Source of the DNA: Oryzias latipes
Taxonomy: Eukaryota; Chordata; Actinopteri; Beloniformes; Adrianichthyidae
NCBI RefSeq assembly: GCF_002234675.1
Contig: NC_019864.2
Location: 10,440,129-10,504,128, forward strand
DNA: 64,000 nucleotides
Direction: 5' to 3'
Each line of letters starts with the position of its first letter. The stretch's first letter is position 1. A program made the translations under genes and the position numbers. The notes under the pieces are model-generated. The model was not told the DNA's origin, ran no database searches, and saw only the letters and a program-made list of their open reading frames with translations. Of this stretch, positions 12,561 through 64,000 are shown piece after piece.

Positions 12561-13140
12561 TTCTACCCTCTTTCATACAGGCATGTTCCACTTCAGCTCG
12601 GACAAACATAAGAGGATTTTTTTTTTGTACTTGACCACATTTAGTCTCTGCAATTTCGATAAAAACAAAAATGACCAATTTTTGTGTTTTTTTTAAATAT
12701 TTTTGACTAAAGAGATTATTTTGAAAATAGTCATGTAATCCCTAAAAATTTATAAATAAATCAGTTTTTTAAATCTAGATTACACGTCTAAGTAGAAGAA
12801 ATAATCTGATAAATCTTTTTTATTCCTCTCTGGGGTTATGCTTTTTATGTTTATGTGATCCTTTTTTCCAGTGATTAATATTTTTTAAATCTAGAAATCT
12901 ATTTTAAGTACCTATTCAGTTGAACAGCTCCAAAGAATGCCCTTGTTTAGGTGAGTCTACTCTGATTTATTTAGGGTTCTTTTGGTTGGCCACAAGTCTC
13001 TCTTCTATATTTTGTACATGAATGATTTCAGAAAATTTAGTTAACCTTCTACAAACTATTTCTTTATGTTAAAGAAATTCTATAAATCCACAAATGTAAT
13101 AAATAATCCCATATTTTACAAGAAAGAATTAAACAGCCTG

Positions 13141-20056: not shown

Positions 20057-21515
20057 TACAGTCAGGACCATAAATATTTGGACAGAGATACATACTAATT
20101 TAGTTTCTGTACATTACCACAGTGAACTTTAAATAAAACAACTCAGATGCCATTGCAGTGCAGACTTTCAGCTTTTATTCCATGAGTTGAACAAAAAGAT
20201 TTGCATAAAAATGTGAAAAACTAAAGCATTTTTTAAACTCAATCCCTTCATTTCATGGGCCTGTTAGCAATTGGACAATTGACTTCCATGCTATTGCATG
20301 GGCGGGTGTGGTCAATTCCCTTGTTATGTCATTATGAGTGAAGCAGATAAAAGGCCTGGAGTTGATTAGAGGACTCGTGCTGCATTTTGAAGATTTTGCT
20401 GTGAACAGACAACATGCGGTCAAAGGAGCTCTCCATGCAGCTGAAAGGAGCCATCATTAAGATGAGAAAACAGAAAAAAAAACCATGCCAGAAATTGCTA
20501 AAGTATTAGGAGTGGCAAAATCAACACTGTGGTACATCCTGAAAAAGAAAGAAAGCACTGGTGAACTCAGCAACGCAAAAAGACCTGGACGTCTACGGAA
20601 GACAACAGTAGTGGATGATGGCAGAATCATTTCCATGGTGAAGAGGAACCTGTTCACAACAGCCAACCAAGTGAACAACACTCTCCAGGAGGTAGGTGTA
20701 TCAATATCCAAGTCTACCATAAAAAGAAGACTGCATGAATGTAGATACAGAGGGTACACTGCAAGATGTAAGCCACTAATAAGCCTCAAGAATAGGAAGG
20801 CTAGATTGGACTGCTAAAAAGCATCTAAAAAAGCCAGCACAGTTATGGAGAAACATTCTTTGGACAGATGAAACCAAAAACAACCTCTACCAGAATGATG
20901 GCAAGAGAAAAGTATGGAGAAGGCGTGGAGAAGCTCATGATCCAAAGCACACTACATCATCAGTAAAACACGGTGGAGGCAGTGTGATGGTCTGGGCGTG
21001 CATGGCTGCTAGTGGCACTGGGACACTAGTGTTTATTGATGACACGACACAGGACAGAAGCAGCCCAATGAATTCTGAGGTATTCAGAGACATACTGTCT
21101 GCGCAGATCCAGGTGAATGCAGCCAAACTGATTGGGCGGCGTTTCAGAATACAGATGGACAACGACCCCAAACATACAGCCAAAGCAACTCAGGAGTTTA
21201 TTAAAGCAAAGAAGTGGAATATTCTTGAAGTCAGTCACCTGATCTTAACCCAATTGAGCAGCATTTCACTTGTTGAAGACTAAACTTCAGACAGAAAGGC
21301 CCACAAACAAACAGCAACTGAAAGCAGCTGCAGTAAAGGCCTGGCAGAGCATTCAGAAGGAGAAAACCCAGCATCTGGTGATGTCCATGAGTTCAAGACT
21401 TCAGGCTGTCATTGCCAACAAAGGGATTTCAACCAAATGTTAGTAATGATTATTTTGTTTTCAGTTACTCATTTGTCCACTTACTTATGAGCCCATGAAA
21501 TGAAGGGATTGTGTA
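20057..21515 (+). mobile_element. Tc1-like transposon, right end missing
   Basis: Left terminus cagtcaggaccataaatatt follows a TA repeat at 20041-20058. The transposase region begins near 20414 and is broken: a frame change occurs at the A run around 20470-20482, the helix-turn-helix part is readable at 20485-20817 (MPEIAKVLGVAKSTLWYIL, KRPGRLRKTT, VSISKSTIKRRL), and the catalytic part is readable in another frame to about 21283 (ILWTDETKNNLY, GGGSVMVWACMAASGTG, QMDNDPKHTAKAT), with another frame break near its end. The WTDE and DNDPKHTA words carry the first two catalytic acids. The inner inverted repeat aatcccttcatttcatgggc (left, 20241) is matched at the right at 21490-21512, but the outer ~180 bases of the right end are absent. 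It is not autonomous. Confidence 0.9.
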
Positions 21516-23080: not shown

Positions 23081-25112
23081 TCACCAATGTCTGGACTCAA
23101 TCAGCTCGGCGCGCAGGCTCAGCTTCTTCAGGGTCTCGTATCCGACCACCAGGAGCACCGACGTGGGCAGGGAGGAGAGGATGCGGGCGGACAGCCCCTT
23201 GGTCACGATCCCGGCGCCCTCCTCCGCCAGCAGCTGCTTGAACGTTTCTATGATGGACGATCGTCCCTCCACCTTCAGGAGACAGGAGAAATCGCTGTGG
23301 TTAGGGGCGCCATCACTCCACAGAGAAAGATTGTTGAGGTGGAAAGTACTATGCACATTTGCGGATGGTGCAGAAGAAAACTAGCCTGAGAGACAAAGCA
23401 CACAAACATTTCAACACTAAAGCTGTGACCCCGCCCACACCGGCTGAACGACTGCTGCACGCCGTCCACTTTCCCTTCTGCCCCGGCAACCCTGGTCAGA
23501 GTTGCATGTGACATAGTGGCGAAAGGCAGCTTTTCTCTTGGTTTTATCTCCATAGCAACCTTTCATTGTCTGTTAGTCAGGAGGTGATCATTTTTGGAAG
23601 AATCTGCAAAAGTAAACTTTTGGATTTCCTTGCCAACGGAGGTTTTTAGTTAACCATGCCCACATTCCTAATAAGTTTCTATTGCATGTCATTTCTTTTT
23701 GTCCAGCTGAAGTCAACAATTCGTGTATTCAAATTTTTAATGAAATTTCCCAGCCGTACAGTTTGGGGCCAGATTCCAGCTCAGACGAGGAGAACAAAGA
23801 CAAACATGGATCTAATCGTCTGCAAGTGGATGCATCAGAACGGATCAGAGCAGAGAGTTTGTGGCCCGCACAGCGTATTTTTCAACTATAACTTCCAATA
23901 TAGAAACGTTTTGGAATATTGAGCGCATTTTTCACTGAGCTAAAGAAAAAAAACACCCCCTACTGTTCCCATGGCAACTCCGATCTGATGGTTTGGGGGC
24001 CCCGGCCAGAGTTCCTGATGTGATGCATGATCTGCTTTGCATGCGCCTGTGCCAGGAACACTCATTGTTAGGAGCTTCCTCATTGACAGGAGTTCAGGGG
24101 TCATTTATGTGGTATTGGATGCTATGGGGGAAACTTGATTCTAGTTTTACTCATGAAACACAACTAAAGGATCTACAGCTAATGCTTATAGCAACAACTG
24201 AATGATGTGGAATCAAAACGGAATCAATCCAATCCATCAATGGAGAAAGAGCAGTTGCATTTCAACGAACCTGTACTCGAGCACGAATGACATCCAGGGG
24301 ATTTGTGATGGTGTAGGCAGTCGCTCCTGCCATTGGTCCAGCCAGAGCCTGCAGGAGCAGGTGAGGCCAAGCACTCGGTGCTAACAGAGTCAGCTGTTCT
24401 GTGAACATAAAGGATGTCAAACGCTGCAACATGGTGCTGTGCTTAACGGGGAGGTTTTCACTGTTGGTATACCTGCATAAAAGTGATAGAACGGCCACCA
24501 GAGGGCGCTGCTGGGGATGTATGTGAGCAGTGACGCCACATAGCCCCGGTAGAATCCCTTCACTCCGTCGGCTGCGTAGATCTGCACCGTCAGGTCCCAC
24601 GCCTGCCCAAACGTTCGCTTGCTCTTGGAGGCGGCAAGCACCCTTTTAGGTTTGACCTTAAAGCGGGACAGCTGCGACACGCTGTGGCAGCCTTGGATCA
24701 TCAGGTGCTGGGAAACCACGTCGATCGGCACGGTGATGGTCTGAGCCACCAAGGATGCAGCGCCCCCCCCCACCAAGGACTTCACAGTGTTGCTGGGCGA
24801 GTAATGGGACACGAACTTGCGCACGAGTTCATAGGTGGTGACGTACGCCTGTCCGGACAGCAGGGTGAAGGAATTGACCATGAAGCCGCGGTAGAGGCCG
24901 CGCACGCCCTCCGCTCGCAGGATCTTCAAGAAGGCATCAAAGGTGCCGGAGTACACCGCCTTCCCCTTCTGCACCTGCAGGCGGGTGCGGATCAGGCTGG
25001 CTGGGTAGGCCGTGGCTCTGGAGGTGAAGGTCATGAACACACCCAGGGAGTAGAACTTCCTCTTGTCCAGGTCCTCCCATTCGATGATCTGGATGGGACC
25101 TTTCTGCTGCAT
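23081..25112 (-). CDS. slc25a44: Mitochondrial carrier SLC25A44 (branched-chain amino acids), complete
   Basis: Inner-membrane carrier of the SLC25 family; SLC25A44 imports branched-chain amino acids into mitochondria, well known in brown fat. Coding exons on the minus strand: 25112-24473, 24398-24271, 23272-23081; 960 nt, 319 aa (human about 314). It starts MQQKGPIQIIEWEDLDKRKF and ends LKKLSLRAELIESRHW. The three carrier repeats show their signature: YPASLIRTRLQVQKGK near residue 36, VPIDVVSQHLMIQG near 140, NPLDVIRARVQ near 250. Internal words such as TFDAFLKILRAEGVRGLYRG and RGYVASLLTYIPSSALWWPF fit this member. Junctions: GCAG|gtatac to cacag|AACAGC, and CAG|gttcgt to gaag|GTGGAG. A splice acceptor at 25165 precedes the ATG exon, so an untranslated first exon lies upstream. 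It is tail-to-tail with wdr61. Confidence 0.96.
23700..23940. mobile_element. TTAA-family remnant in slc25a44 intron 3
   Basis: Shares ccagattccagctc, aatcgtctgcaagtggatgc, agagtttgtggcccg and cagcgtatttt with the copy at 26560-27000. A short frame here encodes DSSSDEE...RLQVDASERIRAESLW, aligned with DSSSDVE...SSASECIRMERSREL at 26800. Confidence 0.6.
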
Positions 25113-26559
25113 GGTGGTGACTGGGAGGGCAGCGCTGCACCCCAGCTGTCATCAACCATCACACCTGTGAAGATATGAAAGTAAAAAAAAAAGAAAAAAG
25201 GATTCTCATCATCCTCACTAAAAGGTGGAATGAAGATATGTGAAAACCCAAAATCCCATTTCTGTGATTATTCAAGTTCTTCTATTTCCATCAGATGTTT
25301 TCTAAAATCTATTCTTGATAAAAAAGTTTTGTAGAAATCAAGCTTTATTTAAAAAAAACCCCACAAAGGCTAGAGTATTAAAAATGAAAGGACTTACATT
25401 CAGATAAAGAAAGGATTTATTTTTGATAAATAATCAGAGGTGTGAGGTAATCTAATTTCTAGAAATGTATTCTGACATTAATCTGTATCAACTCTCCATA
25501 TCTATTGATCAACATAACCATTTCTGATCAAATATTATCTAAATTACATTAAATAACTGCTTTTTTATGAGTTCTCTCCCTGTGGACGTGAAACAGTGGG
25601 TCATCCGGTGAGCTCTTGAGGTGGTAGGAGCCTAAACTCTTCAGGAAAACCTGCTTCTGACCAGGTTAGGTTCACAGACTAAGTTACCATGGCAACGCCA
25701 CCCATCTTTCAAACACAGATGAGCCTGGGTTTGATGAGGCTTTTGCTCTGAGCTTCAAACTGCACTGGGTTGTAAATATATTTAAAGTTAGACCAGTTTA
25801 CATTGAAATAAAATAAGATTTAAGTTGTGCAACACCCCCCTCTAGTGGTTACTTTGTGAACTAAGCTTGGTTTAACTTAGTTGTTTCTTTGTTTGCAGCT
25901 GACACCATTTCATCTAGACATGTTGACATCCAATCACAGTGTTTTTAAGAATACCAAGCCGAATTATTGACCTAACAGGACCCGGGTTTGATGATCTCCT
26001 GTCAATCAAAAACCAGGCCTCCTGTTTGTGGGCGGCGGCTCTGAGGTCAATTATAAAATGGCGAGGGACGGAGGTGAAACATCCTTATTACAAACAAGAA
26101 CAAATAATCGAAAATTATAGTAATAAAGGAAAGAAAAACATCGTAAGTGTTTGTTTTAGCATTTTTTTTCTATTAATCAAGTGTGTTTTGAAATTGTTTA
26201 ATTTAACTGCAGGTCGTATTGTAACTTTTGATCAGAAACAGGAAGTTGTGGAGACAGAACCTCAATTCTGAGCTGTTCTGTAAAACACTAAACATAGAAG
26301 GAATTTAAGTAATAACAAATGTATTTAGAGTATAGATACAGTAGATTTTAACATCAAAAACTTTGTAGGTATGAGGCATCAAAGTAGAAATGCATTAATA
26401 TTTACAACATAAAGCAAAGTCAGATCTGTTTTTTTTCTATCCACAGGAGCATCTCTGTCACATTTAGTAGTGTCCATTGTTGGCCTTTAAATTCTCATTT
26501 AGACATTTTTAGCCAAAATCCACAAACTATTTTGAAATTGTTATGCTGTTTTTAGGCTA

Positions 26560-44200: not shown

Positions 44201-47200
44201 TGATATCTGGCCGTCCAGAGAGGAGGTCCAGCAGACGGAGGAGGACACGGTCATCTCCTCTGTCTTCAAGGATCTCAGGGGAAGGATGGAGGTTAGGAGA
44301 TGAAACTAAAGCTGTCTTTTTAATGGAGATGCAAAGGAAAGTTCGTTTCTTAATGTGAGTAAATGTTGACAGATGTTCCGCTCTCTTCCAGAAAGGGAAC
44401 ACGTTTTGGAACAACATTGAAAGTCCAGACTCGGTGGTTTTCCCGTGGGATCCCAAGTCCACGTACATCCGTTGTCCACCTTTCTTCAGCAAGCTGGTAA
44501 GTCCTCTGAAAGCTCTCTGTGGGAGCGCCGGGACCCTGACTTCGCCTTTCATCCTCCTCTCCCCTGTCTCAGAGCAAAGAGCTCCCCGCTCCTCAGTCCA
44601 TAGAGAACGCTCACGCCTTACTCTTCCTCGGGGACAAAGTGAGCACCGACCACATCTCGCCAGCGGGCAGCATCGCCAGGGCCAGCACCGCCGCCAAATA
44701 CCTGCAGAGCAGACGGTCAGTTTCAAGCTTTGGTTTTTTATTGACTCTGTCCTGCCCAACGTTAATAATGGGGTTATTTCCAGGGAGGGACGGCCTGATC
44801 TGATCACGGAGTTTCACACTTGATCAAAATCAAATGTTGCATCAGGAATCAGGGATCAGATATTTGTTTGATTCTCTTTACCATACTGATCAGTGCTAAA
44901 TACTTCAAGCTTATTCTACACCAGGGGTGGGCAAACTGCAGCCCACGGGCTGGATCCGGCCCGCCTCCATGTTTGGTCCGGCCCACTGAACAATATCAGT
45001 TATATCATTTATTTTGATCTGGCTACACTATCACGACCCGCATAGAACGTGAAATTTTATCCCCCTCTTCTGCAGTCTGAGCTCCAGCCTGAAACCCTCT
45101 AAAATCTCTGTCAAACAGAACAGAAGACAGTCTTCCCTTTCTACGTCGCAGATCATCTTTCCCGGTTTAGCTCACTCATTTAGAGCGATTGTGCTACTTT
45201 TTTTAAACAGCGCACCCTGTTCTGTGTCCTGATTGGATGGAGACCTTGTCAATCAATCTCCTCCGTGTCTCCTGTACAGAAACGCGGAGCTCTTCAGATC
45301 TACAGAAATTTGTGATCAATCAGATCTTTGTTTTCATTCTAAGATCCTTGACCTAAATTCTATGAAAGTTTCAGAATTTAAACAGAGAAAAGGATGAAAA
45401 TGTTCATGTCTGTCTGAGAAAAGTGTAGAAAGTGTGCAGTGAGGAGTTTTACTGCCATAAGCGTTTGTAATCAGACTCTGTGGATTTCACCGATCATGGT
45501 TATTTTTAGAACGTAACTCCTGCAATAAAGGAGGGAACTCTGTACTGGTGAAAAGGTAACGCAGTTATATGCGTAGCTGCAGCAGAAGACAGAAGAATGT
45601 GCTTTCTTTCATTATTACTGGATGAGAAACAGACGTGCAGGACTCAGCTGCTCAGTTTGAGCGCAAACTGTGAGACGTGAGGAGCTGCAGCTTCAAAGTC
45701 TCAGCTGGTCAACGACGGGAGAGGATCTTCTATTTATTGGTTTTTCTATTTTTTCCTGACTTTTGGTCTTTGAAAAATCACAGTTATTTGGTCATTTTTT
45801 TTATTACATAAATAGTGTTATTTATCTTATTAAAAGGACCATGAATTAATAAAACTTTATTATAGGGCTTTACAATAAAAGACAGATAAAAGTTGAAAAA
45901 AAACATCAAATGTTGACCTCACAAGTTAAAGTTTGGGGACTCCGCTCTAGCATCCATGTGGGGTTGGAACATTTGTTGTTTTTCTATCTTACGATCATTC
46001 AAACATCACATAAACGCAGCATTTCCACAAGTTCTCCATGAGGTACATCAAGCCGTTGGTGCAATTGGCTAAAAATTCTAAAATGTTTTTTTTTAAAATA
46101 CAACTTTAAATCCAAATGTTTTCATCCAGATTCCATGTTATTTCTTTCTCACAAAAAATGTGAAAAACTGACAGCGGGTGTTTATAGCTTTCCCTTAACA
46201 CAAACATTGATGTACAACAGTATCCATGGCAACCACTCTTGCCATTCAGGAGTGAGATCCCACCTCACCTTGAAACCTGTCAATGAAACCTTCCAAATGT
46301 TCATCGTGAGACCACGTATACTTTTATGGAGTTTATAGCTTTCACTACAGATAGTAGGAGGAATAGCTAAAACATGTTAACAAAAAGGACGAGTACTGAG
46401 TAACAGATGTTTATTTCTCAATAGAATAGTAAACGCATTGTGTTTCTTTTAAGTGGATAGTTTCTGCAGAGCGGCAGGAGCTTGTTGTAGTAGACTGTTA
46501 GCTCACTAGGAGCCCGGAGCGTGTAGCTCGCCCAGCGTATTTTCTATGCCACAAAGAAGCTCTTTAAAATAAAGGGAATTGTGATGATGATAATGATCGG
46601 CGGACGCTGCTCACACCGTGTTTGTGCGTGCGTTTTGGATAGGCTGACCCCGCGGGAGTTCAATTCGTACGGCGCTCGCAGAGGAAACGATGCGGTGATG
46701 ACCAGAGGCACGTTTGCCAGCATCAAGCTCCTGAATCGGTTCATCGGGAAGCCAAGCCCGAAGACTTTGCACATTCCTTCAGGCCAGACGGTGAGCGCTG
46801 CAGCAGAACCTTCTGATGCCGTCCTTCCTGTGTTTGTGTTTAGCTTATCTGCTCTGCTCCTCTGTTCTGCGCTCATCCTTCCAGCTGGATGTCTTTGAAG
46901 CAGCGGACCGCTACCAGAGAGATGGCGTTCCCCTGGTTATCCTGGCAGGAAAGGAGTACGGCTCTGGGAATTCCAGGGACTGGGTTGCCAAAGGGCCCTA
47001 TTTGCTTGTAAACAACAACAACAACAAACACTCGTTTTGGAGTTTTCTTTTTTGCTGTTTTTTGTTTTGGCAGTAAAGCGTTTCTGTGTGCCTGCAGGGC
47101 GTGCGAGCGGTCATCGCCGAAAGCTTCGAGAAGCTCCACAAGTCCCAGCTGGTGGGGATGGGCATCATGCCGCTTCAGTTCCTGCCCGGCCAGAGCGCCG

Positions 47201-47520
47201 ACTCGCTGGAGCTCAGCGGGAAGGAGCGCTTCAGCATCGTCCTGCCAGAGAGCCTGAGTCCCAGGCAGCAGCTCACCGTTAAGGTATGCGCCGGCACCTG
47301 CGCCCGCCTCCGTGTGACGCCACCGCGCTTCAGCAAAGCCTCTCTTTCTGCCCTGCAGACCAGCAAAGGAACGTCCTTCTCCGTCACCGCACTCTTCGAC
47401 TCTCAGATAGATGTCATCATTTTCCAACACGGGGGGCTTCTTCGGTACGTCGCCCAGACTTTTCTCAGAAGTGGCTCGCAGCCCAGAGCCGGTGCGGCCG
47501 AGCGCCCTCCATGTCCATAA
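29229..47520 (+). CDS. ireb2: Iron regulatory protein 2 (IRP2), complete
   Basis: Aconitase-superfamily RNA-binding protein that binds iron-responsive elements in ferritin and transferrin-receptor mRNAs when iron is low. Coding exons (22, as in human): 29229-29253, 33686-33772, 34845-35010, 36597-36734, 36838-37080, 37242-37311, 37699-37882, 37994-38133, 40252-40423, 40521-40621, 40764-40880, 40967-41126, 42098-42233, 42797-42881, 42973-43129, 44167-44291, 44392-44496, 44573-44715, 46643-46790, 46885-47007, 47098-47283, 47359-47520; 2973 nt, 990 aa (human 963). Diagnostic words: [89 protein letters not shown]. Exon 5 encodes the IRP2-specific insert, which separates it from IRP1. Cysteines 522, 588 and 591 keep the 66 and 3 spacing of the IRP1 cluster ligands. 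The C-terminus is about 17 residues longer than in human. Exon phases are consistent throughout. Confidence 0.97.
30425..30950. mobile_element. TTAA-family copies in ireb2 intron 1
   Basis: Two adjoining parts, 30425-30625 and 30655-30950. The second is very close to 48850-49140 (cacttgaaatagatcatatc, tgtgccacaaactcctgctc, ctctcagcaatgggaag), which suggests a recent subfamily. Confidence 0.8.
31458..31545 (-). repeat. Retroposon tail fragment (Rex1/Babar-like)
   Basis: Reads agatagataaatagatgac then tttattaatcccacagtggg and gaaatttca, the reverse of a common fish LINE 3' end. A similar fragment is at 42505-42550 (actttattaatcctgaagga). Confidence 0.45.
32006..33331 (+). mobile_element. hAT-type MITE interrupted by a second element
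   Basis: Left end caggggtgtcaaactcattt, right end complement shares gtcaaactca and gggcc. The 8-base flanks gtcttaaa (31998-32005) and gtctaaaa (33332-33339) differ at one base, a good hAT target duplication. Removing the inserted element leaves about 440 bases. Lies in ireb2 intron 1. Confidence 0.85.
32153..33035. mobile_element. 883-bp element nested in the hAT MITE
   Basis: Ends cagcgttggaataagcgg and its inverted partner (cagcgttagaaataaggg on the other strand), each followed by ggttgtccg-rich sequence that can fold (gttgtccgagacaacc; ggttgtcctccggacaacc). Flanked by the 5-base direct repeat tttac at 32148-32152 and 33036-33040. An 88-codon frame at 32196-32462 shows no recognised domain. 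Confidence 0.8.
35042..35749. mobile_element. hAT-type element in ireb2 intron 3
   Basis: Left end ctccaacctttttcagacca followed by cagaccggt; right end ggaccggtactggtctgcag followed by ccccgggttgaggaccactg. These are the worn ends of a common vertebrate hAT family (ccggt...ccaacc...ccactg). No reading frame. Confidence 0.65.
36033..36316. mobile_element. Short hAT-type relative in ireb2 intron 3
   Basis: Begins cagtggttccaaag and ends ccaccacccgggggtttgga followed by gaccactg, with gaaccggtactggtcc inside. A short internal-deletion relative of the element at 35042-35749. Confidence 0.6.
36450..36520. repeat. Dispersed fish repeat fragment
   Basis: Reads ggcgccgactcgttcgctgt then ggcgaccctgatgggaaaag and ccgaaagag, a 3' end I have seen as a common fish repeat. 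Family name uncertain. Confidence 0.4.
36838..37080 (+). other. ireb2: ireb2 exon 5, IRP2-specific insert
   Basis: Encodes about residues 139-220, between [12 protein letters not shown] and [18 protein letters not shown]. The middle is rich in S, P, R and G and includes [17 protein letters not shown], three cysteines spaced C-x6-C-x4-C. In mammals the insert has three cysteines spaced C-x5-C-x3-C and has been linked to redox, heme and iron responses. The insert is what marks this gene as IRP2. Confidence 0.9.
37490..37600. mobile_element. TTAA-family right end in ireb2 intron 6
   Basis: Contains aaacagcataatcataatca and aaaagacaaccgggg, then gatcagaatgggtcttcag, matching the right part of the family. 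Confidence 0.55.
38134..40251. other. ireb2: ireb2 intron 8, AT-rich
   Basis: Very AT-rich filler (38290-39250) with no exon. One possible hAT end, caggggtttttcaacctttt, at 39733, without a clear partner. Confidence 0.5.
41263..41815. mobile_element. MITE with gttcacac ends in ireb2 intron 12
   Basis: Left end ctacgttcacactgaacaag, right end cattcggtgtgaacgcagct. The ends are inverted around gttcacac(t/c)gaa. No coding capacity. A related end occurs at 56064 (gctatgttcacacggcc). Confidence 0.6.
43770..44065. mobile_element. Mariner/Tigger-like fragment in ireb2 intron 15
   Basis: Begins cagtaaacccttgtttttcg followed by gggttacgttccaaaaag and agacaaaatctgtgaagtag, a widespread vertebrate DNA-transposon end. 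A (TA)n tract precedes it at 43742-43770. Superfamily from memory, so tentative. Confidence 0.5.
44932..45944. mobile_element. hAT-type element in ireb2 intron 18
   Basis: Left end caggggtgggcaaactgcag then cccacgggctgg and gtccggccc; the expected inverted end is seen in worn form at 45926-45944 (taaagtttggggactccg). Flanks ttctacac and ctctagca agree only partly. No intact frame. Confidence 0.55.
46440..46560. mobile_element. TTAA-family fragment in ireb2 intron 18
   Basis: Contains gatagtttctgcagagcggc, tgtagctcgcccagcgtatt and ctatgcc, shared with 19190-19240 and 23860-23885. Confidence 0.5.
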
Positions 47521-51207: not shown

Positions 51208-54200
51208 TTACGCAATGGCTTTTGCTTCAGGTAAGAAAGCCTCCCAGTACTTTATCAGCTGAGGAGAGAAGTACACAAAAATGGAAAAGACATACTGAGC
51301 TGGTTTGTATTTGAAGATATTCAAAGTTTCACAACTGTTTGTTTTTATAGCAGCTGAAAGAGGGTTTGACTGTTCTTCTCGACTCACCTGCTGCTGAGAC
51401 TGAAGCAACAACTCCAAGTACTTTGTTATCTGCCTTTTAAAATTCTTGGTCCTTTGTTTCTAAAAGAGGGATTTAAAAAAAGAAATAGTTGATCGTTTCC
51501 AGAGCTAGCTGTTGTGGATGAATGAGGGTCAGAGCCGTACCTCAAAGCGGAGGACTTCCTTGCGTACAGTTGCAGAAACTCTCTCAAAGTCTCGCTCGAA
51601 CTGAGTCACCCTGGCTTCCCACTGCGATCCGGAAGAAAAGAGAAATGAGAGCGAGATCTCCTTATCAAGTGATTACTGTAAACCAAACTTTTTTAGGACT
51701 GTCATTGGTTACTTAAGCCTTAGTCCCAAATGCTGTTACCAGTAGACTGAGGGCCAGACAAAGGCCATCACACAACTTTAAGATCGTAGACCATTCAGTG
51801 AGCCCGTGAAGCCAAAATGTAAAGGCACGATTATTTTTCTACAGGCATGCTGTGGGGAACAGGTTATAGCGAACACTTCTACAAAACACACGGGTAAGTT
51901 AGGGTGAAGTAAGTGACGCATCACCTGCACACCCTGTGTGCACAGCTATTGCACATGGTCAGTAAGGAGCACCTAACTAATGTCTAAAATGCAACTAACA
52001 ACTGGAACACAACCTACAAACTTACTACCAACCTTACTAAAAACTAGAAAGCAACCTTACTAACAACTAGAAAACAACCTTACTAACAACTAGAAAGCAA
52101 CCTTACTAACAACCTTACTAACAACTAGAAAACAACCAACAACCTTACTAACAACTAGAAAACAACCTTACTAACAACTAGAAAGCAACCTTACTAACAA
52201 CCTTACTAACAACTAGAAAACAACCAACAACCTTACTAACAACTAAAAAAAAAAACAACAACCTTACTAACAACTAGAAAACAACCTTACTAACAACTAG
52301 AAAACAACCTTACTAACAACTAAAAAACAACCTTACTAACAACTAAAAAGCAACCAACAACCTTACTAACAACTAGAAAACAACCTTACTAACAACTAGA
52401 AAACAACCTTACTAACAACTAGAAAACAACCTTACTAACAACTAGAAAACAACCAACAACCTTACTAACAACTAGAAAACAACCAACAACCTTACTAACA
52501 ACTAGAAAACAACCTTACTAACAACTAGAAAACAACCTTACTAACAACTAGAAAACAACCTTACTAACAACTAGAAAACAACCTTACTAACAACTAGAAA
52601 GCAACCAACAACCTTACTAACAACTAGAAAACAACCAACAACCTTACTAACAACTAGAAAACAAACATACTAACAACTAAAAAGCAACCAGCAACCTTAC
52701 TAACAACTAGAAAACAACCTTACTAACAACTAGAAAGCAACCAACAACCTTACTAACAACTACAAAACAACCAACATCCTTACTAACAACTAGAAAACAA
52801 CCAACAACCTTACTAACAACTAGAAAACAACCAACATCCTTACTAACAACTAGAAAACAACCAACAACCTTACTAACAACTAGAAAACAACCAACAACCT
52901 TACTAACAACTAGAAAACAACCAACAACCTTACTAACAACTAGAAAACAACCAAAAACCTTACTAACAACTAGAAAACCACCAACAACCTTACTAACTAG
53001 AAAACAACCAACATCCTTACTAACAACTAGAAAACAACCTTACTAACAACAAGAAATCAACCTTACTAACAACTAGAAAACAACCAACAACCTTACTAAA
53101 AACTAGAAAACAACCAACAACCTTACTAAAAACTAGAAAACAACCAACATCCTTACTAACAACTAGAAAACAACCAACAACCTTACTAACAACTAGAAAA
53201 CAACCAACAACCTTATTAACAACTAAAAAACAACCAACAACTTAACTAACAACTAGAAAACAACCAACAACCTTACTAAAAACTAGAAAACAACCAACAT
53301 CCTTACTAACAACTAGAAAACAACCAACAACCTTACTAACAACTAGAAAACAACCAACAACCTTATTAACAACTAGAAAACAACCAACAACTTAACTAAC
53401 AACTAGAAAACAACCAACAACCATACTAACAACTAGAAAACAACCAACAACCTCACTCACTAAAGACTAGAGTGTGACTAACGACCTTACTAATGACTAA
53501 AGCAAAGAACGACTTAACTCTTAGAACCTTACTAATGACTGGAGTTTGACAAACAACTTTATTAACAGAGTTTGACTAATAACTAGAGTGCAACTAACGA
53601 CCTTAACCAACGACTAGAGCTGATAACCTGACTAACAAGTAGAGAGTGACTGAGGACCTTACTAACCACTAGAGGGCACTGCATCACCTGTGCATCATAA
53701 GACTTCTATTATTCTTACAAACACTTCATGACCCACTTACCACCCACGACAACCGTATGTTCCATTTTCATGAGGTGTTCATTGGAGCTTAAACTGTAGA
53801 ACACATCTGTGCCCCCCTCTTTATGACCCTCCACGTCCCACACAACCCAAAACGCAGCCACTTCCCCATAGGTGTGAATGGGACAAAGGCTTTAACTGGT
53901 GCAAAATTAAGAGTTTCATTTGCTTTCTGATTGGTTTACCTCCACGATCTCCTCTTTGGCCTGTTGCAGTTTGTCTGGTTTGTTGGCCCACAGCAGTTTG
54001 GCCTCCATCTCCCTCTTCTTCTGCAGCATGGCCTGGGCGTCCTGCCAGCGCTGCCACGCCTTTATCCGGTGATCAAACGACCCCTGTAGGCCGAACGCGC
54101 ACAGACACTTCAGTTTGTGTTCCAAAATACCTAAAAACATTCAGGTCGTTCTGCACGAATCGTTGGGCGCAATGTCCTCCGTACCCTGACGGCTCCCAGC

Positions 54201-57200
54201 AGGCGGATGTAATCTGCGATCAGCTCTGCGAAACTGAAGGTGTCGTACGCAGCCTGGTCCTGGTGCAACTGCTCGATCTTGTCCTCCACCTCGGCCAGCT
54301 GGGACAGAGCTCGGGACAAGGCGGTGTTGTCCTCGGCGCTGCCCAGCATGGCTGCACTTTTGGCAAAGTTTGCTGTGTTCAACGACAACTCTGGAGGAGA
54401 TTTAAAAGACCTTAAGAATCGGGGGGGGGGTTGGTGGCATTTCACTACAGAAAAGAGAAATCCAAACCTTTTCTATGAACTACTAGTGATTCAACCAGAG
54501 CATGAAGCTTCCTGAAGTGCTGGTCTGCAGACTCCACCTCCTGGAGCTTCTCCTCAAACCACTGCAGGAAAACACATCGTCATCATCAACCAGCTGCGTC
54601 TGTGAGCCTCTGAATCCAACACAACACCTTTGCTTCAATTGGATCCACTTTGGTGGAACTTTTAAAGGACGGGGTTTTCCAGCTGGACTCACCGCGTCCG
54701 ACTCGTTCATCTTGATGGTCATTTTACTGACGGCATCCGTCGCTTTGTTGATCATTTTGAGGAAGCCGGCGCCGCTTAGAGTCTGTGTGCTGACCGCTCG
54801 GGGCAACTGGAGACATAAAACAGAGTCAGACGCTCTAAAAAGTTTGGGAAAGAGAGACAGTCGTTCGGTTTGATGAGAGTTAAAAACGAGGGTTTGGTAT
54901 TAAAGGACAGATACAGCGATTGATCAACTGAAGCGTACTTCATCCTTCTCCAGGAATTCACGGACATCGGGATCCTGGAGGAGCAGGGGGTGATTCACCA
55001 CCCTCTGAAGATACCTGTAGACACACAAGAAACAAACATAAAAAGGTATTCAATCACAGATCTTAGTCTGTGATTCCAGAGTTCATGACCTTCATCTTCT
55101 TTTACCTTTCCAAAGCACCTCGTCTTCGCTCGAGAAAGTCTGCCGAAGAGGAATCTTCTTTTCCCACCTTCACCTTGGTCATTCCTGCAGGACCCAACAC
55201 TCAGGATTAGAGAAATATGCATGAAGTGAGAGATGGAAAAGCCAGACACCCTTACCCAGAATGCTCTTCTCTGGGGGTGGAGGGACGATCAATCCATTTG
55301 GTCCATGTTTTTCGGAGAGTTTCTGGTAGAGGCCTAGGAAGTCGCTGAAGCGTCGCCGGACTGTGAACAGCTTGTTGCGGAACATTGGCAGTGTGGTCTA
55401 GGGAAAAAAAAAAGTTGTAAAAATTTACCTTGTCATCTTTTCTTTTTAAAACTCTCAAAGATGGAATTGGTTTAAAGACACACTCCGATGAAAGTCATTT
55501 TTGGTGTTTTTAACACATTCTTGTGGCATTTTTCTGACATAGATGAAGGAAAATTAGGCTTAAAACTGCATTTCTGAATATTTCTTTATTCAAATCGTTA
55601 AAAAAAGATCTCATTTGTGATGTAGAAAAATACATTGGGAGGGTCACAAGCTTCCTGCCATGCAACTGGAAGGGGAAGGGGGTTGCTGTGCACCAACAGT
55701 CCCACCCACAACTCAGAGGTGAATTTCTAATGAGCTGCTGCAGAAACTGTGCCCCAGAAAACAACACAGGTGTTTGGATTTAGCCTAAAAGCAGCAGAAC
55801 ACTTTAAAACGAGATCAAAAGACCAAAGTGGGTCTTTAAGAATTTGAGATGTTTCACAATAAGAGCACTTAATTTGAAAGAGGGTCATGGGAGGGGGGAG
55901 GGTCATGCATCAGATGTGAAAAAGTACAGTCCTGAAAAATGACAGATAAAAGAACCAAAAATCCAGCTTTACCTCTGTGGATACTTTGTAGGCCATGTAA
56001 GCGTTCATGCCGTCCCCTAAAAGACAACAAAGTGAAGTATTCTTAACATTTCTTTGTTTTTAAAGCTATGTTCACACGGCCATCGGAAATGCAAAAAAAG
56101 CTCGATGTGAATGCGTTTCAGGCTTCCGCCTTTGAAATTCTTCTGTTCACACACATTACGCAAGTTTCTACAAATGTTTTTGGGCTATCCGTACAAAACG
56201 AACATGCGTTGAAAGTTAAACTAGGTCACACTTGGGCTAATCCAGAATAGTGACTTATCTGGTGACTCCAGACATGACGGCGAGCTTGATGGCGTCTGGG
56301 TTTGTTTTTTTTAAATAAAGATAAACCGAGGTCGCTCTCCTGACATGACGGTGATCCATATCCGCCATTGCAAGGACGCTCCCAACGAACGGAACCATTT
56401 CATGCCCCAAAATTGCAAGATTTGCACCACTTCAACATTTTGCACCAAGCCTCTTTTAACTACAGGTGGCAGTCATGCGGTGGGAAACGGTAGAAAAAGA
56501 AGCCCCTCCCTGCTGGTCCAGTGTGGACACCAATCAGGGGTCTCAGAATCCAGGCCTCGAAGGCCAACCTGCCATTGAAGCTCCTTATTGGCTGAACCCA
56601 CCTGATCCAGGTAATCAGGCAGCGTTTCAGGAAAACCAGCAGGTCAGCCCTCCAGGCCTGGAGTTTGACACCCCTGGGCTAAACGCACGTGTAAGAACCG
56701 CCGTGTTCGTAGTTTTAGTCTTCACAGTGCAAACAACAGAGGCCTGCAGCCCCGCTGTCATCAACCAAACCTAAAGAGTTTCTTTCACACAGCAGCTTCA
56801 CAAAGTCACAGGAAACACAACCACTCACCAACTTTCTCAGGATCTTTGACAGAAACCAAAACGTCAAACTTGTCCTCCAGCTCTGCCTCTTCCTCATCTT
56901 CCAACTGAAAACCAAAGAAAGAAAATCTAGAAACATGTGTTTCCCACAAACACTTCTCCTACATAACTGCAATTCTGATTTAGGAAATGTCTGTAGGCAT
57001 GGATACAAAAAATAAAGCAGAATTCCCCTGCAGGTTCATCTTTGTCATATTTTATGATAAAAATGATGATATAAACAAATTCCCGGGACTTTCATCTTGG
57101 TTTGGTTTGTACCTCCTCCAGGGCAGCAGGCGGCGGCTTGGCCTGTCTGGCGGGGGCTGAAAGAGAGGAGGAAGAGGAGGAAGCAGATGGCTTGGATGTT

Positions 57201-60200
57201 TCTTCGTTCTTCCTGCTGCTCCGTGGACTGTCTAGAGAAAGCTCCACTGTGGCCTCTGATGAGCAGAAACAGGAAAAAAAAAAAAAACGAACATAAAAGT
57301 GAAAGAGGGAAGGGTTGGTGTGGTTAACAAAATCCGTTTATGATTGTATACTTCCTGAAACAAGACAACCTAAAAGAGTTCCCACTTCAAACCACATTTA
57401 TCGAAGCTGAAGAAGATGGAAAAGAATGGTGACTTTGTAAATAAATAAAGCACCCACCAGTAAATAAGTCCTCCTCAGAGTGCACTCCATTGGCCTTGGA
57501 GTTGACAGTGTTGCTGGTTCTTGGCACCGTGGTGGCAGCTTCCTCTGTGAAGATATCTGCAGGTTCGGTGGGTTTGGAGAATGCTGGCCCAGCAGCTTTG
57601 GCTGTGCTGGACTTCCCTTCATTCTCTGTGGTCTTCTTGGACATGGCTCCCAGCGGCTCGCCGAACAGGTCCTCGTCAGGTTCCCCGAAGAGTCCTTTTT
57701 CAGGCCGACTGCTGGCTTTGCTCTGTGGTGCTCCTGTGAAAATGTCGCTGCCGTCGTCTTCAAACAGGTCAACTACAGCACTGCTGGGTTTTTTGGGATC
57801 TGCGGCTGGAGTGTCACCGAGAATCTGAGCTAAAGGGTCGATTACTTTTCCCCCGACGCGTGGCGGCTGTACATCGTTGTCGAGGTTGATAATCGGAGCA
57901 GCGGAGGAGGAACCCGTTTTTTCACCTGGTAGATCCGGACCGCCACTGGACGCCTCACCTGAATCGGCTTTGACAGAAGCCTCGACTTCCACCTTTTGCG
58001 TTTCACTTCCCAGTATGTCAAAAAACTCATCCGACGGCTCAGGGGAAGAGATTTCTGCTGCGTCTCTACTTTCTGCATCTAGGTTGTTGGTCAGGTCCAC
58101 AAATTCTTCGGGGGATGAGCTGGCTGCACTCTTCTCCGTTTGGCTGCTTGGAGGCCCGACTGAGAGATCCTCCATGAGGTCGCTGGCCTGACTGTCGGGG
58201 GAAGTTGGGGTGTCCTGTTTGGTCAAAGGAGTATTGCTCTGAAGACAAACATAAAAATCACTGTTAGTCCATACCTGCACTATGAAAGTGAATACGATTT
58301 TTCTTTTTCAGTTAGAAAAATAGGTTACGTTTTTTATGAAGGAATATTTTAGAAGCAAGAGAGAAAAAGTGGTTAAAACTTTATCTACTGCAGAAAGCCT
58401 GAATTCAACTACTCAATGCTGATAGTGCCCCCTTTAGGCCAAAGAAGGAGTAGAACGTTCAGAGTACTGAGAGACTGAAGTATTTACATCAGATTGAGGT
58501 TTTTTGTTTGTTTGTTTGTTTGTTTGTTTGTAAACAAAAAACAATGTTAGCAATACCAAATTATTTTTTGTATTTGTTTAGCCTTATATTTTTACTATAA
58601 TGTTAGATATTAACCCTAAACAAAAGCATAAAAGCTCAGAATCTCAAGGACTCAAGGAGTATTTTATAGCCATTTTCAGTGAACAGGGCAGTTTCACAAT
58701 CAGTCCCAACCTCAGAATATAGTAAAGCGTGCAGCAGCTAGCAAGCTCATGAGGCTGCCGTGGATTCCGTTTATTTCTTAGAAATGTAGCTGTAAAAGGT
58801 TTTGATGTTCATACTATTCTCTGGTAGGAAGCCTTGGCCTTTGACACAAAGATCATTGTGATGTGGGGTTTCCCCACACCCAACAGTCAGGGATCATTTA
58901 ACTGGCACGTTCAAATTCTTTTGATCTTTTCCAAACGTTTATGCTAATATACGATTTGTGTGATCCATGCTCATTTTTTTCCTGTTTGAAAACAATTTCA
59001 GACAACTCTACTGCATACCAGTATGTTTCCATTGGAAGTGAAACACATTAACACTAAATTTAAGAAGGATTTATTATTTTATGACATCACACCAGGTTTA
59101 GTATGGGCCCATGGAAAGGTTTTTCTTTATTTTTACTCTCTCATTATTCAAAAGACATTATTCTGAATTTCTTCTTATTGTTGTTTTGTATTACATAAAT
59201 CATATCAAACCAAAATGAACACGTGAACAAAAAATAATCATAACAATCACAACCAAATTGTGGGGAAAGTGAACCGTTGCATCCCTAATACAAATACTCA
59301 CATAACTACGATAGTTGTGAATCTGGATAATGTTGATTCTTTGAACTATATATTTATCAGGTTGTGTTAGGAAACCGATTTTATGAATTACAACATTTGT
59401 TTCCAGTCTATGCACATATTTGGCCAGGGGAATTATGGGACATTCTAAACCTCCAAGTGGCAACACTAAAAATGGATTTTAAAGATTAACTAGAGTACGA
59501 CTTATTTTCATATTTCTTAACAACTTCAGTGATTGATTTAAGGAAATTATGGAATTCATCCACTTCTTTGGGTCTATGTTATTTTAACATTGCATTACTA
59601 AACAATATACTTTTACAGTTTTTCAATAGTGCAAGTTTTCAATTTCATCTGATCCAATGTAGGAGATCATTGATTAACAAGTTTATACATCAAATTGTTG
59701 AAAGAGGTCTGCTTCGTTTGTTGGAGCTCATTTGGAAGATTAATCAATTTTGATGCATCAAATCCAATATTTTACCTTCCTTTAAAAGTGATTCTTGTTT
59801 TTTTTTTAATTTAAGACAAAAAAAGCTTTTAGATGATTTTAATTTAAAAGAAATTCAATTAGAAAAAGCTTGACTCTAATTTATCTCAATTTTCTGAGAA
59901 AAGTAATCAAATAAAACTGGTTTTGAACAGAAATCGGGAAAATATCTGTTTAATTGGATCATGGACTCAAATCAAAATCAAATTTGGATTTTGGCAAGGA
60001 TTACCAGCCCTTTTTTAAGCAATTGATCTATTAGTAAACAATGATGCTAACTTGTTTTTGTTCTATTTCTCCAGTTGCACAAAAAGTCAAGTGTGGTTAA
60101 GTGGATTAGCACATCTTGGCAGAGGTTGGGCCACCCTGCCATTTGCAACCATTACTTTAGCCGTGAGCTCAGTTCAGAGAAACATTGGAAACTGCTGACT

Positions 60201-61081
60201 AAGCAGACTAATGTCCTCCATGCAGCTCTGAGTAAACGCAGAAAAAGCCAAAGGCAGCAACTTCCAATCTGCCCTGTGAACTTTGAGGGAAAACATCCGG
60301 GTTTAGACCATGTGACCTATGCGTGCTCACATGACAGGAGGCAGCTTCAGCAAACTTTCTATTCTCATTCAAAAGCACTGAATGACAATAACAAAAGAAA
60401 ACACAAAACCGAGACATCTGCGTGTCAACCACAACTTCAACCACAATAAGCCCATGCTCTGCAAACTTCAGGTTTCCCCCCCACGCGTGGCCTCCCCAGT
60501 GTAGAGCCTGCACACCCAGAATCAGAGTTATTCAGTTATTTTTACGCGAACCATCTTCTTTAGATGCGGTTTGTAGATACAAATCGAATGGAAAGCGGTA
60601 AAAACAATGCACCTTTAAGAATGAAATTACCTGAAATGTTTGCAAAATTTCTGCTTAATCAAGTGACGCGGGGCACGTCGGGTAGTTTCCACCACTGAAA
60701 CTCGAAAACCGCCCAAAGAATTCGCATGAATGCTTTGCTAACACGCGCAACCAAAACCCAAACTGCATAAAAAACGTTTTAATCTGAGATTCTGGTCATG
60801 CTAACTCACAAAACACGACAAAAGTTTGACCAAAACTATCCAATTAGCTTCTCACGGAGACGTTACCTCCCTGCTGACAGTTGGTATCCTTTAGCCAAAT
60901 CAGAGGCGGGATAGCTAACATGATAAGGAGCGCGAGCTCCTTTGACACGTACCGCGCTCATAAACAGCTCCTCTCCGTCGTCTTCGTCACTGTCTCGACC
61001 ACCAACTTCTTCAGAATCCAGCACATCTTGGTCCTCGGTGTCGGGAAAAGGAGGAGGACTCCGCTCCGAACTGGACGCCAT
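51208..61081 (-). CDS. snx1: Sorting nexin 1, complete, long N-terminus
   Basis: PX-BAR protein of the ESCPE-1 coat that binds endosomal phosphoinositides, tubulates membrane and exports cargo with SNX5/6 and retromer/SNX27. Minus-strand coding exons: 61081-60953, 58238-57458, 57255-57113, 56904-56829, 56016-55973, 55397-55256, 55184-55106, 55014-54939, 54806-54693, 54561-54468, 54390-54185, 54083-53940, 51621-51541, 51459-51388, 51258-51208; 2232 nt, 743 aa versus about 522 in human. Order: acidic N-terminus (1-350); PX domain about 370-490 with [20 protein letters not shown] and [10 protein letters not shown]; linker [23 protein letters not shown] domain with [49 protein letters not shown] and [19 protein letters not shown]; end [14 protein letters not shown]. 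The extra length is almost all in exon 2 (781 nt). Phases agree at every junction. Paralogue a or b not decided. Confidence 0.96.
51985..53690. repeat. Minisatellite in snx1 intron 12
   Basis: Tandem array, best preserved 52040-53455, of a 23-base unit (caaccttactaacaactaga plus aaa) and a 30-base version with an added caaccaa. Roughly 50 units. The 23-base form dominates at 52040-52620 and the 30-base form at 52740-53455. Both edges decay into diverged units (51985-52040, 53455-53690). It fills most of the 2.3 kb intron between 51622 and 53939. Confidence 0.97.
55480..55835. mobile_element. TTAA-family copy with both ends, snx1 intron 5
   Basis: Best complete copy: left edge tttaaagacacactccgatg, right edge caaagtgggtctttaag. 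The ends are inverted (agac(a/c)cact) and bounded by TTAA on both sides. The body holds the shared words cttgtggcatttttctgaca, cagtcccacccacaactcag, aggtgaatttctaatgagct and ccccagaaaacaacacagg. No coding capacity. Confidence 0.85.
56535..56676. mobile_element. 142-bp hAT-type MITE in snx1 intron 4
   Basis: Ends caggggtctcagaatccagg and ggcctggagtttgacacccc then tg; inverted repeats of about 20 bases. It lies inside or beside a further repeat that starts near 56064 (gctatgttcacacggcc). Confidence 0.75.
57458..58238 (-). other. snx1: snx1 exon 2, enlarged acidic exon with DLF/DIF motifs
   Basis: A single 781-base exon encodes about 260 residues of low-complexity S/E/D/P-rich chain. It has repeated acidic-hydrophobic motifs: [55 protein letters not shown]; exon 1 adds GEELFMSA. 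Human SNX1 has two such motifs (DIFTG and DLFAD). The exon has intact frame, GT-AG borders and correct phase, so it is read as real coding sequence. Confidence 0.9.
58503..58531. repeat. GTTT microsatellite in snx1 intron 1
   Basis: About seven TTTG units. Confidence 0.95.
58532..60952. other. snx1: snx1 intron 1, remainder
   Basis: AT-rich sequence with several short open frames (59529, 60075) of no recognised content. No exon was found between 58239 and 60952; exon 1 joins exon 2 in phase 0. Confidence 0.6.
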
Positions 61082-61409: not shown

Positions 61410-64000
61410 ATGTCCCGGCACTTGGATACAGGAGACGTGGACGCGCGACGGCCTCTGCTCCCCGGAGATCAGCTGGATTCCAGCGTGCTGGACTCTGATG
61501 AAGGTAAACCCACCATCACAACATCAGTAGATCAGTGACTTTCATTCACATCCAAACAGATAGGTGCAACATTTTACAAAATAAAAGTTTTGCCAGCAAA
61601 TATATACTACCATATACTCTTTTTTTTTAACATCATATCCTGAATAATAATTAACTTTTTGTGTTTGTTTTTACAAAAACAAAAATTATTTCAGATGCAG
61701 TGGTGGGACAGTAGTTTGCATCCATCATGATTGTTTTTCTCACATTAAAATGCTTTAGATTTAGGAGTGTAAGGATTATTCAATGAATTGATTTAACCAA
61801 CCAGATCGATTCAAGTTAAGTTGGTAATTAAATCAAATTACCATACAAGATGAAAAAAAAAATCCTTTCAAAATAAAATAAATCAATTATATTGACATTG
61901 GAAAATAGCTTTTCGATTATGACATGGTGCGTTTATTTTACTGTAACGTAAAAATGATCAAGTGTCATCACAGCGAACAACACAGATGTGATGGCAGCAA
62001 AAAATGAAGTCATCATTCCAGTCCAAATTTGAATTCAGCAAAGTCATGTACATACAGTACATGCAAACAAAACAGTATTCTAATAATGTTTTGTTTGCAT
62101 GATGTTGATGTGGAAAAACAACAGTGGGCTGAACTTTAGGGACCAAAAACATGAATGGATTTGACATTAATTCTTGTTTACTTATTTGTTTGTACACATA
62201 TTTAAATGACACCTAATTTTAATGCAAGGAATCAGAAAAAAAACAGTCCCACTGGTTGAATCTTTGGCTGAAAGATGTCCTGGAGTGATTTTAGGTCAGT
62301 GAATCGGACCGTTCAAAATGAACTAATAGACTATGAATCACTTGTATTGGACTTGAAGGAATATATTGTCAACATCCTGTTGCAATACATGCAACAACTG
62401 AGAAGACTTTATGGTGAAGTGGTGAAATTCAGCACATTTTCAGTCGTTTTAGGTTCGCAAAAGACCACACAATGGCGTCTAAAATCATTTGGCTCAGAGA
62501 AAGTCAGAGTAAAAGGATTCTACCATTAGAGAAAAACTAGGCAACTAACTGCCCTGTTGGGTGGATACAGGCTGTCTGCCAGTGAAAAATGGGCAAATCT
62601 GTGCGCATGTGGATCACACGACATATCAAGGTTGTAGACCCCTTTGGTAGCCAGCAGAGCGCAAATGTTCAACACACGTTTTTTTTCTTTCTGCCATGCT
62701 GCGAGCACCAGCGTATAGTGAACACTTCAACGACATTCAAGGTTTAAGTAAGGGGAGAATAGATGAGCCTCAGGCACATTGTATGGATCCAGGACATCTT
62801 TAGCCAAAACGTCAACCTGTGTGACTCAGAGATGAATACCTGGTACTGAACAGAGCAGGTCAAGTTCTCCAGATTCCTGGTATTTCCTGCAAATAATCAA
62901 GTGTAAATGAAATATGATTACAAACAAACAAGTAAACAAGAATTAATGTCAAATCCATTCACATTTGCGCTTCATTAAGTTCAGCTCACTGTTGTTTTTC
63001 CACATAACAATAATTCAAAGGGAACTTTACACATTCTGTGTGGTCGCATGTCTTTGCTAAATTCAAAGTGTTTCCACACATTGGACTGGAATGATGAATT
63101 GATCATCTTTTGCTGTCATCACATGTGAGTTTTCTGCTGTGATGCAGTTATAGTAAAATGAACGTACCACGTCTCAATCCAAATGCTATTTTCCAACACC
63201 AATTATGAATTTATCTTATTTTGAAATGATTTTTTACAGATTACTTGATTTGATTACCAGCTTGCCTCAGACACATTGATCTGGTTGGATAACATGTAAT
63301 TCATCTGTTAACCGTTACACCACTAATGTGCACTGTGCAAGGGGCCACTTAGAACTGTTGACGTCCTGGGTTCTCATAACGCGACCAGTTTAGAGCTGAA
63401 TCATTGAAGCAGCTCACTTGTGTAAGCCTGGGTGAGGAGTTTGTGTTTAGCAAAAAATCCATGCAAATCCCATATCTGTGGGGTCTGAAGGGTCACAGCC
63501 ACGAGTTGAAGTAACCGGGTCACGCAGAGTTACCTAAAGCGTCAGTCTGATCATTCATCTAATGTAAAAGTGTTTCCAGTGGGTTTTTAACTATGATTTT
63601 GCTGTTCTTAACCAAAATGTAAAAATTAATTAACCAGTAGTTCATTAGAAAGGCAGGACTGTTGGCCAAGTCCACCTGCTTCCCATCATCCCACTAGCTT
63701 ATAGCCCCTCACACCCCAACCTAACATGTTAAAACCCCCAAAAGCAGTTTTGATTGGAATGGGTCTCTAAGTCACTTACTATACATGAATGCCGTCTTGG
63801 AAGCAATTGAATTGGAACACACTCAATTCTGAAAACGTAAGGTAATTTTTTTTAAAGAAAATTCTCCACAGTCGCAACCTGGAAGCAGAGCAAGGTTAGT
63901 TGCAGTTAGTTACATGGCATTCTGCATGTGTGCATGCAAGCTTTTTTTCTCTAAATAAATGTGTTTGTTTTCCTTCTTTTAAGGTGAAATCATTTTTGAG
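61410..64000 (+). CDS. Unidentified gene, exon 1 and start of exon 2 (partial)
   Basis: Exon 1, 61410-61503, encodes MSRHLDTGDVDARRPLLPGD followed by QLDSSVLDSDE. It ends GATGAAG|gtaaac, a good donor. At 63984 the sequence tccttcttttaag|GTGAAATC is a good acceptor, and the joined frame continues DSDE-GEIIFE to the window edge. I take this as the second exon with intron 1 of 2.48 kb. The N-terminus is acidic with an RRPLLPG element resembling a dileucine sorting signal, as found on the cytosolic tails of many membrane proteins, but this is only suggestive. I do not recognise the protein. It shares its promoter region with snx1. Confidence 0.65.
61755..63325. mobile_element. Foldback element with ~430-bp inverted arms
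   Basis: Left arm about 61755-62215, right arm about 62900-63325. Reverse-complement matches include gtggaaaaacaacagtg, gctgaactt, tggatttgacattaattctt, gtttactt, catcattccagtccaa, ttggaaaatagc and ccaaccagatc. The outer ends read ggagtgtaaggatta and, inverted, agtggtgtaacggtta, similar to known fish foldback/hAT elements. The middle 62216-62899 is unlike the arms and has no recognised protein. Sits wholly in intron 1 of the right-edge gene. Confidence 0.8.
63600..63780. mobile_element. TTAA-family fragment near right edge
   Basis: Contains agcttatagcccctcacacc followed by ccaacctaacat, shared with 26715-26745, and ends gattggaatgggtctctaag like other right ends. Confidence 0.6.

Follow-up and report, generated by a model that had tools for sequence, protein, structure and literature searches.

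Coupling between SNX27 and ESCPE-1 relies on weak motifs that bind in the tens of micromolar per peptide (Simonetti 2022, PMC9038204). Human SNX1 has two acidic DLF (aDLF) motifs that bind the FERM domain of SNX27, with peptide dissociation constants of 33.4 and 13.3 µM on mouse SNX27; changing a single motif roughly halves SNX27 binding, and changing both nearly abolishes it. The same source gives a strict consensus, D/E-x-x-D-I/L-F, and describes in its section 12 a first aDLF motif plus a second found in all vertebrates; its supplementary tree lists the aDLF number per species, and a higher count for fish may already stand there. Here we analyse the snx1 gene in a stretch of 64,000 nucleotides (nt) of the Oryzias latipes genome (C6:10440129-10504128; hereafter the window), in which an unusually long exon 2 carries an array of DLF- and DIF-like motifs.

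Two further systems bear on this array. The tail of FAM21 (WASHC2) carries the motif L-F-[D/E]3-10-L-F (PMC4786876), repeated in human FAM21 as 21 LFa repeats that are reported to bind the same groove of the SNX27 FERM domain (PMC7618989), VPS35 (PMC12000511, PMC7618989) and TBC1D23 (PMC10899256). To bind Retromer (Vps29-Vps35), yeast Vps5 uses a PL motif together with K/R-hydrophobic residues lying upstream of it; some species add an LFa-like sequence (PMC12000511). According to that study, human SNX1 and SNX2 lack a conserved PL motif and human SNX1 gave no detectable binding to Retromer; a review suspects that Retromer and ESCPE-1 are separated across animals (PMC7618989).

Judged from its sequence, the window snx1 is a real elaboration of the known motif system in one gene copy, with a predicted function. 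Among the matches listed for SNX1 DLF motifs in teleosts (titles and abstract starts, with medaka not among the search words), an expanded fish array was absent, and the literature listed for zebrafish snx1a consisted, as judged from the listing, of off-topic papers only.

The snx1 gene and its long exon 2

The gene lies on the minus strand, running from an ATG at 61081 down to about 51211. Exon 1 and a single 781-nt exon 2 had been placed here in the preliminary description, and both hold: each is bounded by GT/AG sites, and exons 1, 2 and 3 join in frame. The parts of the gene are as follows.

60953-61081, minus strand: exon 1, 129 nt, residues 1-43, ending in DGEELFMSA, donor GCG/GTACGT
57458-58238, minus strand: exon 2 (the long exon), 781 nt, phase 0 to 1, residues 44-303
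57953-57961, minus strand: candidate internal donor CAG/GTGAGG, exon 2 offset 280, giving a short exon end at 57959
57113-57255, minus strand: exon 3, 143 nt
51211-56871, minus strand: other exon pieces found, which span PX and BAR as far as the C-terminus and match human SNX1

Residues 4-73 match the Pfam Sorting_nexin N-terminal domain (PF03700, 5.8e-12), and the later exons align with human SNX1 through its C-terminus. Three BAR-region pieces are 73-78% identical to the human protein, the other pieces, which are short or run into introns, being less so; PX and BAR were assigned from this alignment and not from Pfam. The five downstream exon pieces that were re-read contain no stops, with the splice junctions after exon 3 checked in part. 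With its Sorting nexin N-terminal, PX and BAR regions, the gene is of the SNX1/SNX2 type, that is, an ESCPE-1 SNX-BAR gene. Residues 1-351 fall on the disordered side of the charge-hydropathy plot (0.414, against a boundary of 0.457).

An exon of this length could be an annotation artefact, the added sequence being a retained intron or a misjoined exon, and the internal donor, which is in phase with exon 3, would suit such an account. Several properties of the exon argue otherwise. Its frame 0, 260 codons long, was open in only 3 of 5000 order-1 Markov simulations of the exon, and its G+C content is 0.545, the introns on either side having 0.361 and 0.356. Scored against 1084 codons from other exons, frame 0 was the best of the six frames in both halves of exon 2 (-0.059 and -0.117, all scores being slightly negative). 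None of 45 windows in intron 1 had an open sense frame, and the pattern used picked out a single acceptor-like site, which at offset 47 precedes the internal donor. On the strength of the open frame, the G+C content and the codon scores, exon 2 is most likely a true exon and not intron read-through, and we consider an artefact extremely improbable.

A PX-BAR query of the genome (734,051,031 bases in 25 contigs) produced 17 matches, which fall in the window and at one locus each on C3 and C9. We read the C3 copy as the genome-duplication partner of the window snx1 and the C9 gene as snx2. Exon 2 runs from phase 0 to phase 1 in all three genes, and measures 151 nt on C3 and 100 nt on C9; the window exon exceeds that of the C3 paralogue by 210 codons. 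The C3 copy has an exon 1 of 120 nt with GDDIFVS, and its exon 2 encodes EPADLFSQEE and NDLFA. In alignments of the window and C3 copies, 0 of 2000 shuffles scored as high for exon 1 or for exon 2, and 12 of 2000 did so for exon 2 once the last 14 residues were taken off both. The paralogue is like the window copy in exon 1, in the phase of exon 2, in EPAD[IL]F and in the terminal DLF, and unlike it in the short exon 2, in having three strict aDLF motifs, and in lacking both an LFa pair and DPL.

Because exon 2 is short on C3, in snx2 and, presumably, in human SNX1, a gain in the window copy would be the simplest history, with one fish genome compared. The further proposal that the exon grew by internal duplication found no support. 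Exon 2 contains no tandem repeats and only four direct repeats, all weak, two-copy and 12-16 nt long, and its self-alignment score of 47 lies within the shuffle range (mean 43; 83 of 300 shuffles as high). The two members of the LFGEP pair agree in 11 of 15 nt and differ in four, each a third codon position; this may reflect convergence or, at the most, a single local duplication that was small and old. Copying from another gene or repeat was also considered and rejected: a protein search of the fish's own genome, with E up to 1 and three candidates scored, returned only the exon itself.

The motif array and its predicted SNX27 partner

The sites of the array, with the motifs nearest to them, are listed from the N-terminus of the protein.

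60962-60970, minus strand: ELF, residues 38-40 in exon 1, aligning with human EDIF and having E instead of D
57831-57839, minus strand: DPL, residues 177-179, resembling VPS29-binding PL motifs, not significant alone
57738-57767, minus strand: LFa-like pair 1, residues 201-210, containing VDLF and the strict DGSDIF
57663-57692, minus strand: LFa-like pair 2, residues 226-235, containing GLF and DEDLF
57549-57566, minus strand: EPADIF, residues 268-273, a strict motif in common with the C3 paralogue (EPADLF)
57462-57479, minus strand: SEEDLF, residues 297-302, the terminal motif, at the position of human EPQDLF

The array is genuine, and its apparent size varies with the motif degeneracy accepted. 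Window Snx1 has seven [LI]F, six [DE][LI]F and five D[LI]F; four of the D[LI]F have an acid at most three residues upstream, and two fit the strict consensus, which makes the protein a predicted aDLF ligand (at least one D/E-x-x-D-I/L-F). None of 20000 composition shuffles of residues 1-351 reached the six [DE][LI]F (shuffle mean 0.203) or the five D[LI]F (0.094), and a strict count of two was reached by 1 of 20000. The C3 paralogue has three motifs under the D-based counts, and three strict, and human SNX1 has two under every D-based count. Under the relaxed count, the window copy has four, against two in human SNX1 and three in the C3 paralogue; under the strict count it has two, no more than human SNX1 and fewer than the paralogue. 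The preliminary description listed about eight acidic-hydrophobic motifs. All eight strings are present in the translation, but as a number of SNX27-type motifs eight is generous, only five being D[LI]F and two strict. EFFDIL and KGLFGE fall outside D[LI]F, ELFMS carries E in place of D, and the three residues upstream of the motif in VVDLFED include no acid.

The fish and human motifs lie in orthologous genes and in the same disordered region, and in both proteins the exon 1 motif occupies the same place and the terminal DLF directly precedes ATVELSLDS. Unlike human SNX1, the fish protein has four D[LI]F between those two positions, within the product of the 781-nt exon 2, as well as EELF as its exon 1 motif and two LFa-like pairs. 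The 306-residue frame had no match among solved structures up to E 10, the motif block had a single one (yeast SFH1, E 1.2), and a pattern search of viral and prokaryote contigs gave 5 and 54 stretches with no relative among them, as expected for a fish gene.

Two snx27 loci were found in the genome, on C16 and C11. In alignments, both keep 11 of 11 residues (R437, R438, K439, I467, F469, Y490, K495, K496, R498, V500 and K501) that are reported to line or flank the aDLF groove (PMC9038204), and the same species is therefore predicted to supply the partner groove. Because all 11 pocket residues checked are kept at both loci, multivalent SNX27 binding by the window Snx1 tail is, in our view, the best explanation of the array, at a probability of roughly 0.5.

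Under this explanation, the enlarged exon 2 would provide a disordered tail with four to five DLF/DIF motifs, compared with two in human SNX1 and three in the paralogue, each binding weakly and singly to SNX27, in the groove of the FERM domain that is ringed by basic residues. The Snx1 tail, present once per SNX1:SNX5/6 heterodimer, could hold several SNX27-Retromer units or quickly rebind one, and cargo would then be handed over into ESCPE-1 tubules with higher avidity; by analogy, the chemistry of the additional motifs would be that of the human SNX1 motifs. The tail may also compete with the WASH subunit, or substitute for it, by means of its LFa-like pairs, because these are spaced like the FAM21 LFa repeats reported in the same FERM groove. 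An alternative exon end at the internal donor would remove every D[LI]F motif, so that coupling could be set by splicing.

Competing accounts of the array

The suggestion, made at the outset, that this protein is a multivalent SNX27 ligand is favoured by the motif excess and the kept pocket residues, and is weakened by the strict grading and by a donor whose use could remove the array from the transcript. Several observations weigh against it. The strict count is two in the window copy, three in the short paralogue and two in human SNX1; a comparison of one fish genome leaves selection on the array hypothetical; and the array might be mostly spliced out at the internal donor. When five LF/IF dipeptides were placed at random in residues 44-295, two LFa-spaced pairs arose in 2595 of 50000 placements. 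One reconstitution saw inefficient co-pelleting of SNX27, or of SNX27-Retromer, with SNX2/SNX6 on membranes that lacked VARP (PMC11817943). Neutral drift, in which a long, loosely constrained disordered linker gained degenerate hydrophobic-acidic motifs without added function, would account for a strict count no higher than in human, for an exon that matches only itself in the genome and for a paralogue without the added part. It sits poorly with a D[LI]F count that no shuffle reached and with an LFGEP pair whose differences are confined to third codon positions, and we regard it as a doubtful, though serious, alternative. A second account of similar standing places the main novelty in splicing, which would regulate whether or not ESCPE-1 is coupled to SNX27: the long exon 2 end carries the array and the short end (57959) would carry none. 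Use of the internal donor would delete 501 nt, or 167 residues (137-303), in phase, leaving a short form with ELF and 0 D[LI]F motifs. At 11.0 bits, this donor outscores those at the end of exon 2 (7.78), exon 1 (6.21) and exon 3 (3.28), on an approximate matrix and for a site spotted in a scan before it was scored. Of 4000 simulated exons, 70 had an equally strong donor in phase and 176 had one in any phase; 33 nt beyond the internal donor there is another in-phase donor (7.21 bits). At least occasional use of the long form is probable, because the frame past the donor is open and frame 0 scores best there. We see the donor as a possible on/off switch for SNX27 coupling, and hold the stronger claim, that this switch is the main novelty, only tentatively.

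A different partner would also fit some of the sites. Four LF/IF sites form two LF-acidic-LF pairs downstream of the DPL string; two such pairs arose in 1 of 20000 shuffles of residues 1-351. Neither human SNX1 nor the C3 paralogue contains a pair of this kind, and LFDEDTEDLF occurs in the Snx2 piece. With a matrix built from 18 WASHC2 sites of the same genome (95% shuffle threshold 7.73), three window sites pass (9.5, 8.49 and 7.76, the third by only 0.03 bits), compared with one in the C3 paralogue (9.51), one in Snx2 (12.78) and 0 in human SNX1. Because some of the added motifs score as more FAM21/WASHC2-like than those of human SNX1, the candidate partners extend to VPS35 or TBC1D23. The array might then chiefly serve FAM21-type LFa partners (VPS35/VPS29 of Retromer, or TBC1D23) and not SNX27, with DPL adding direct Retromer binding of the Vps5 kind. 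DPL and the upstream RV and KV (residues 166-186) stand 21 residues ahead of the first LF, much as yeast Vps5, an orthologous SNX-BAR protein, combines such sequences (PMC12000511). All three kinds of string are present in the fish tail, but DPL appears in 3591 of 20000 shuffles (18%), a chance level, and human SNX1 and SNX2 are reported to lack a conserved PL motif, human SNX1 also showing no detectable binding to Retromer. The best shuffled sequence scored 12.44 on the LFa matrix, above every window site, and two pairs arise in 5% of the random placements given above. The window tail shares LF-acidic-LF pairs with FAM21, and differs in having two pairs instead of 21 repeats, in its BAR-domain carrier and in its linkers, which have at least three acids each but contain G, P or S, and are less acidic than most of those listed for WASHC2. 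On balance, we judge chief service to LFa partners to be distinctly unlikely. Less likely still is a more ambitious version, in which, in this fish lineage, one Snx1 regained a Vps5-like multivalent Retromer tail (DPL with VPS29, LFa with VPS35, DLF with SNX27) together with a single 5' splice site as an on/off switch, which would partly undo the split between Retromer and ESCPE-1 suspected for animals at large.

Should the tail bind Retromer directly, the view that animal SNX1/2 lost this contact would be challenged. The two paralogues of this fish, of which the first has the long array and the second a short exon, would, together with a possible splice form lacking D[LI]F motifs, offer an in vivo test of valence.

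The snx2 gene provides a separate observation. Its exon 2 (C9:29599100-29599270, minus strand) encodes ESLFDEDTEDLFA, close to a FAM21-type LFa motif. The first LF of this motif is presumably missing from human SNX2. A pattern search for snx2 exon 1 on C9 up to 29614499 did not find it, so the motif count for Snx2 is partial.

Neighbouring features of the window

A divergent gene starts about 330 nt from the snx1 ATG, and on account of this short distance the two may share a promoter region. Just downstream of its first exon, five inverted-repeat pairs look like a fold-back element. These and four other open frames, named by the likeness of their translations, are listed below.

61410-61503, plus strand: start of the divergent gene, encoding MSRHLDTGDVDARRPLLPGDQLDSSVLDSDE, followed by a GTAAAC donor
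61857-63235: five inverted-repeat pairs, with arms of 135, 57, 42, 38 and 34 nt, 76-85% complementary
20783-21280, plus strand: open frame whose translation we take to resemble a Tc1/mariner transposase fragment
11759-12562, minus strand: open frame whose translation presumably resembles a LINE reverse transcriptase fragment
24420-25148, minus strand: open frame that we take to resemble SLC25A44
47077-47517, plus strand: open frame presumably resembling an aconitase/IRP-type protein

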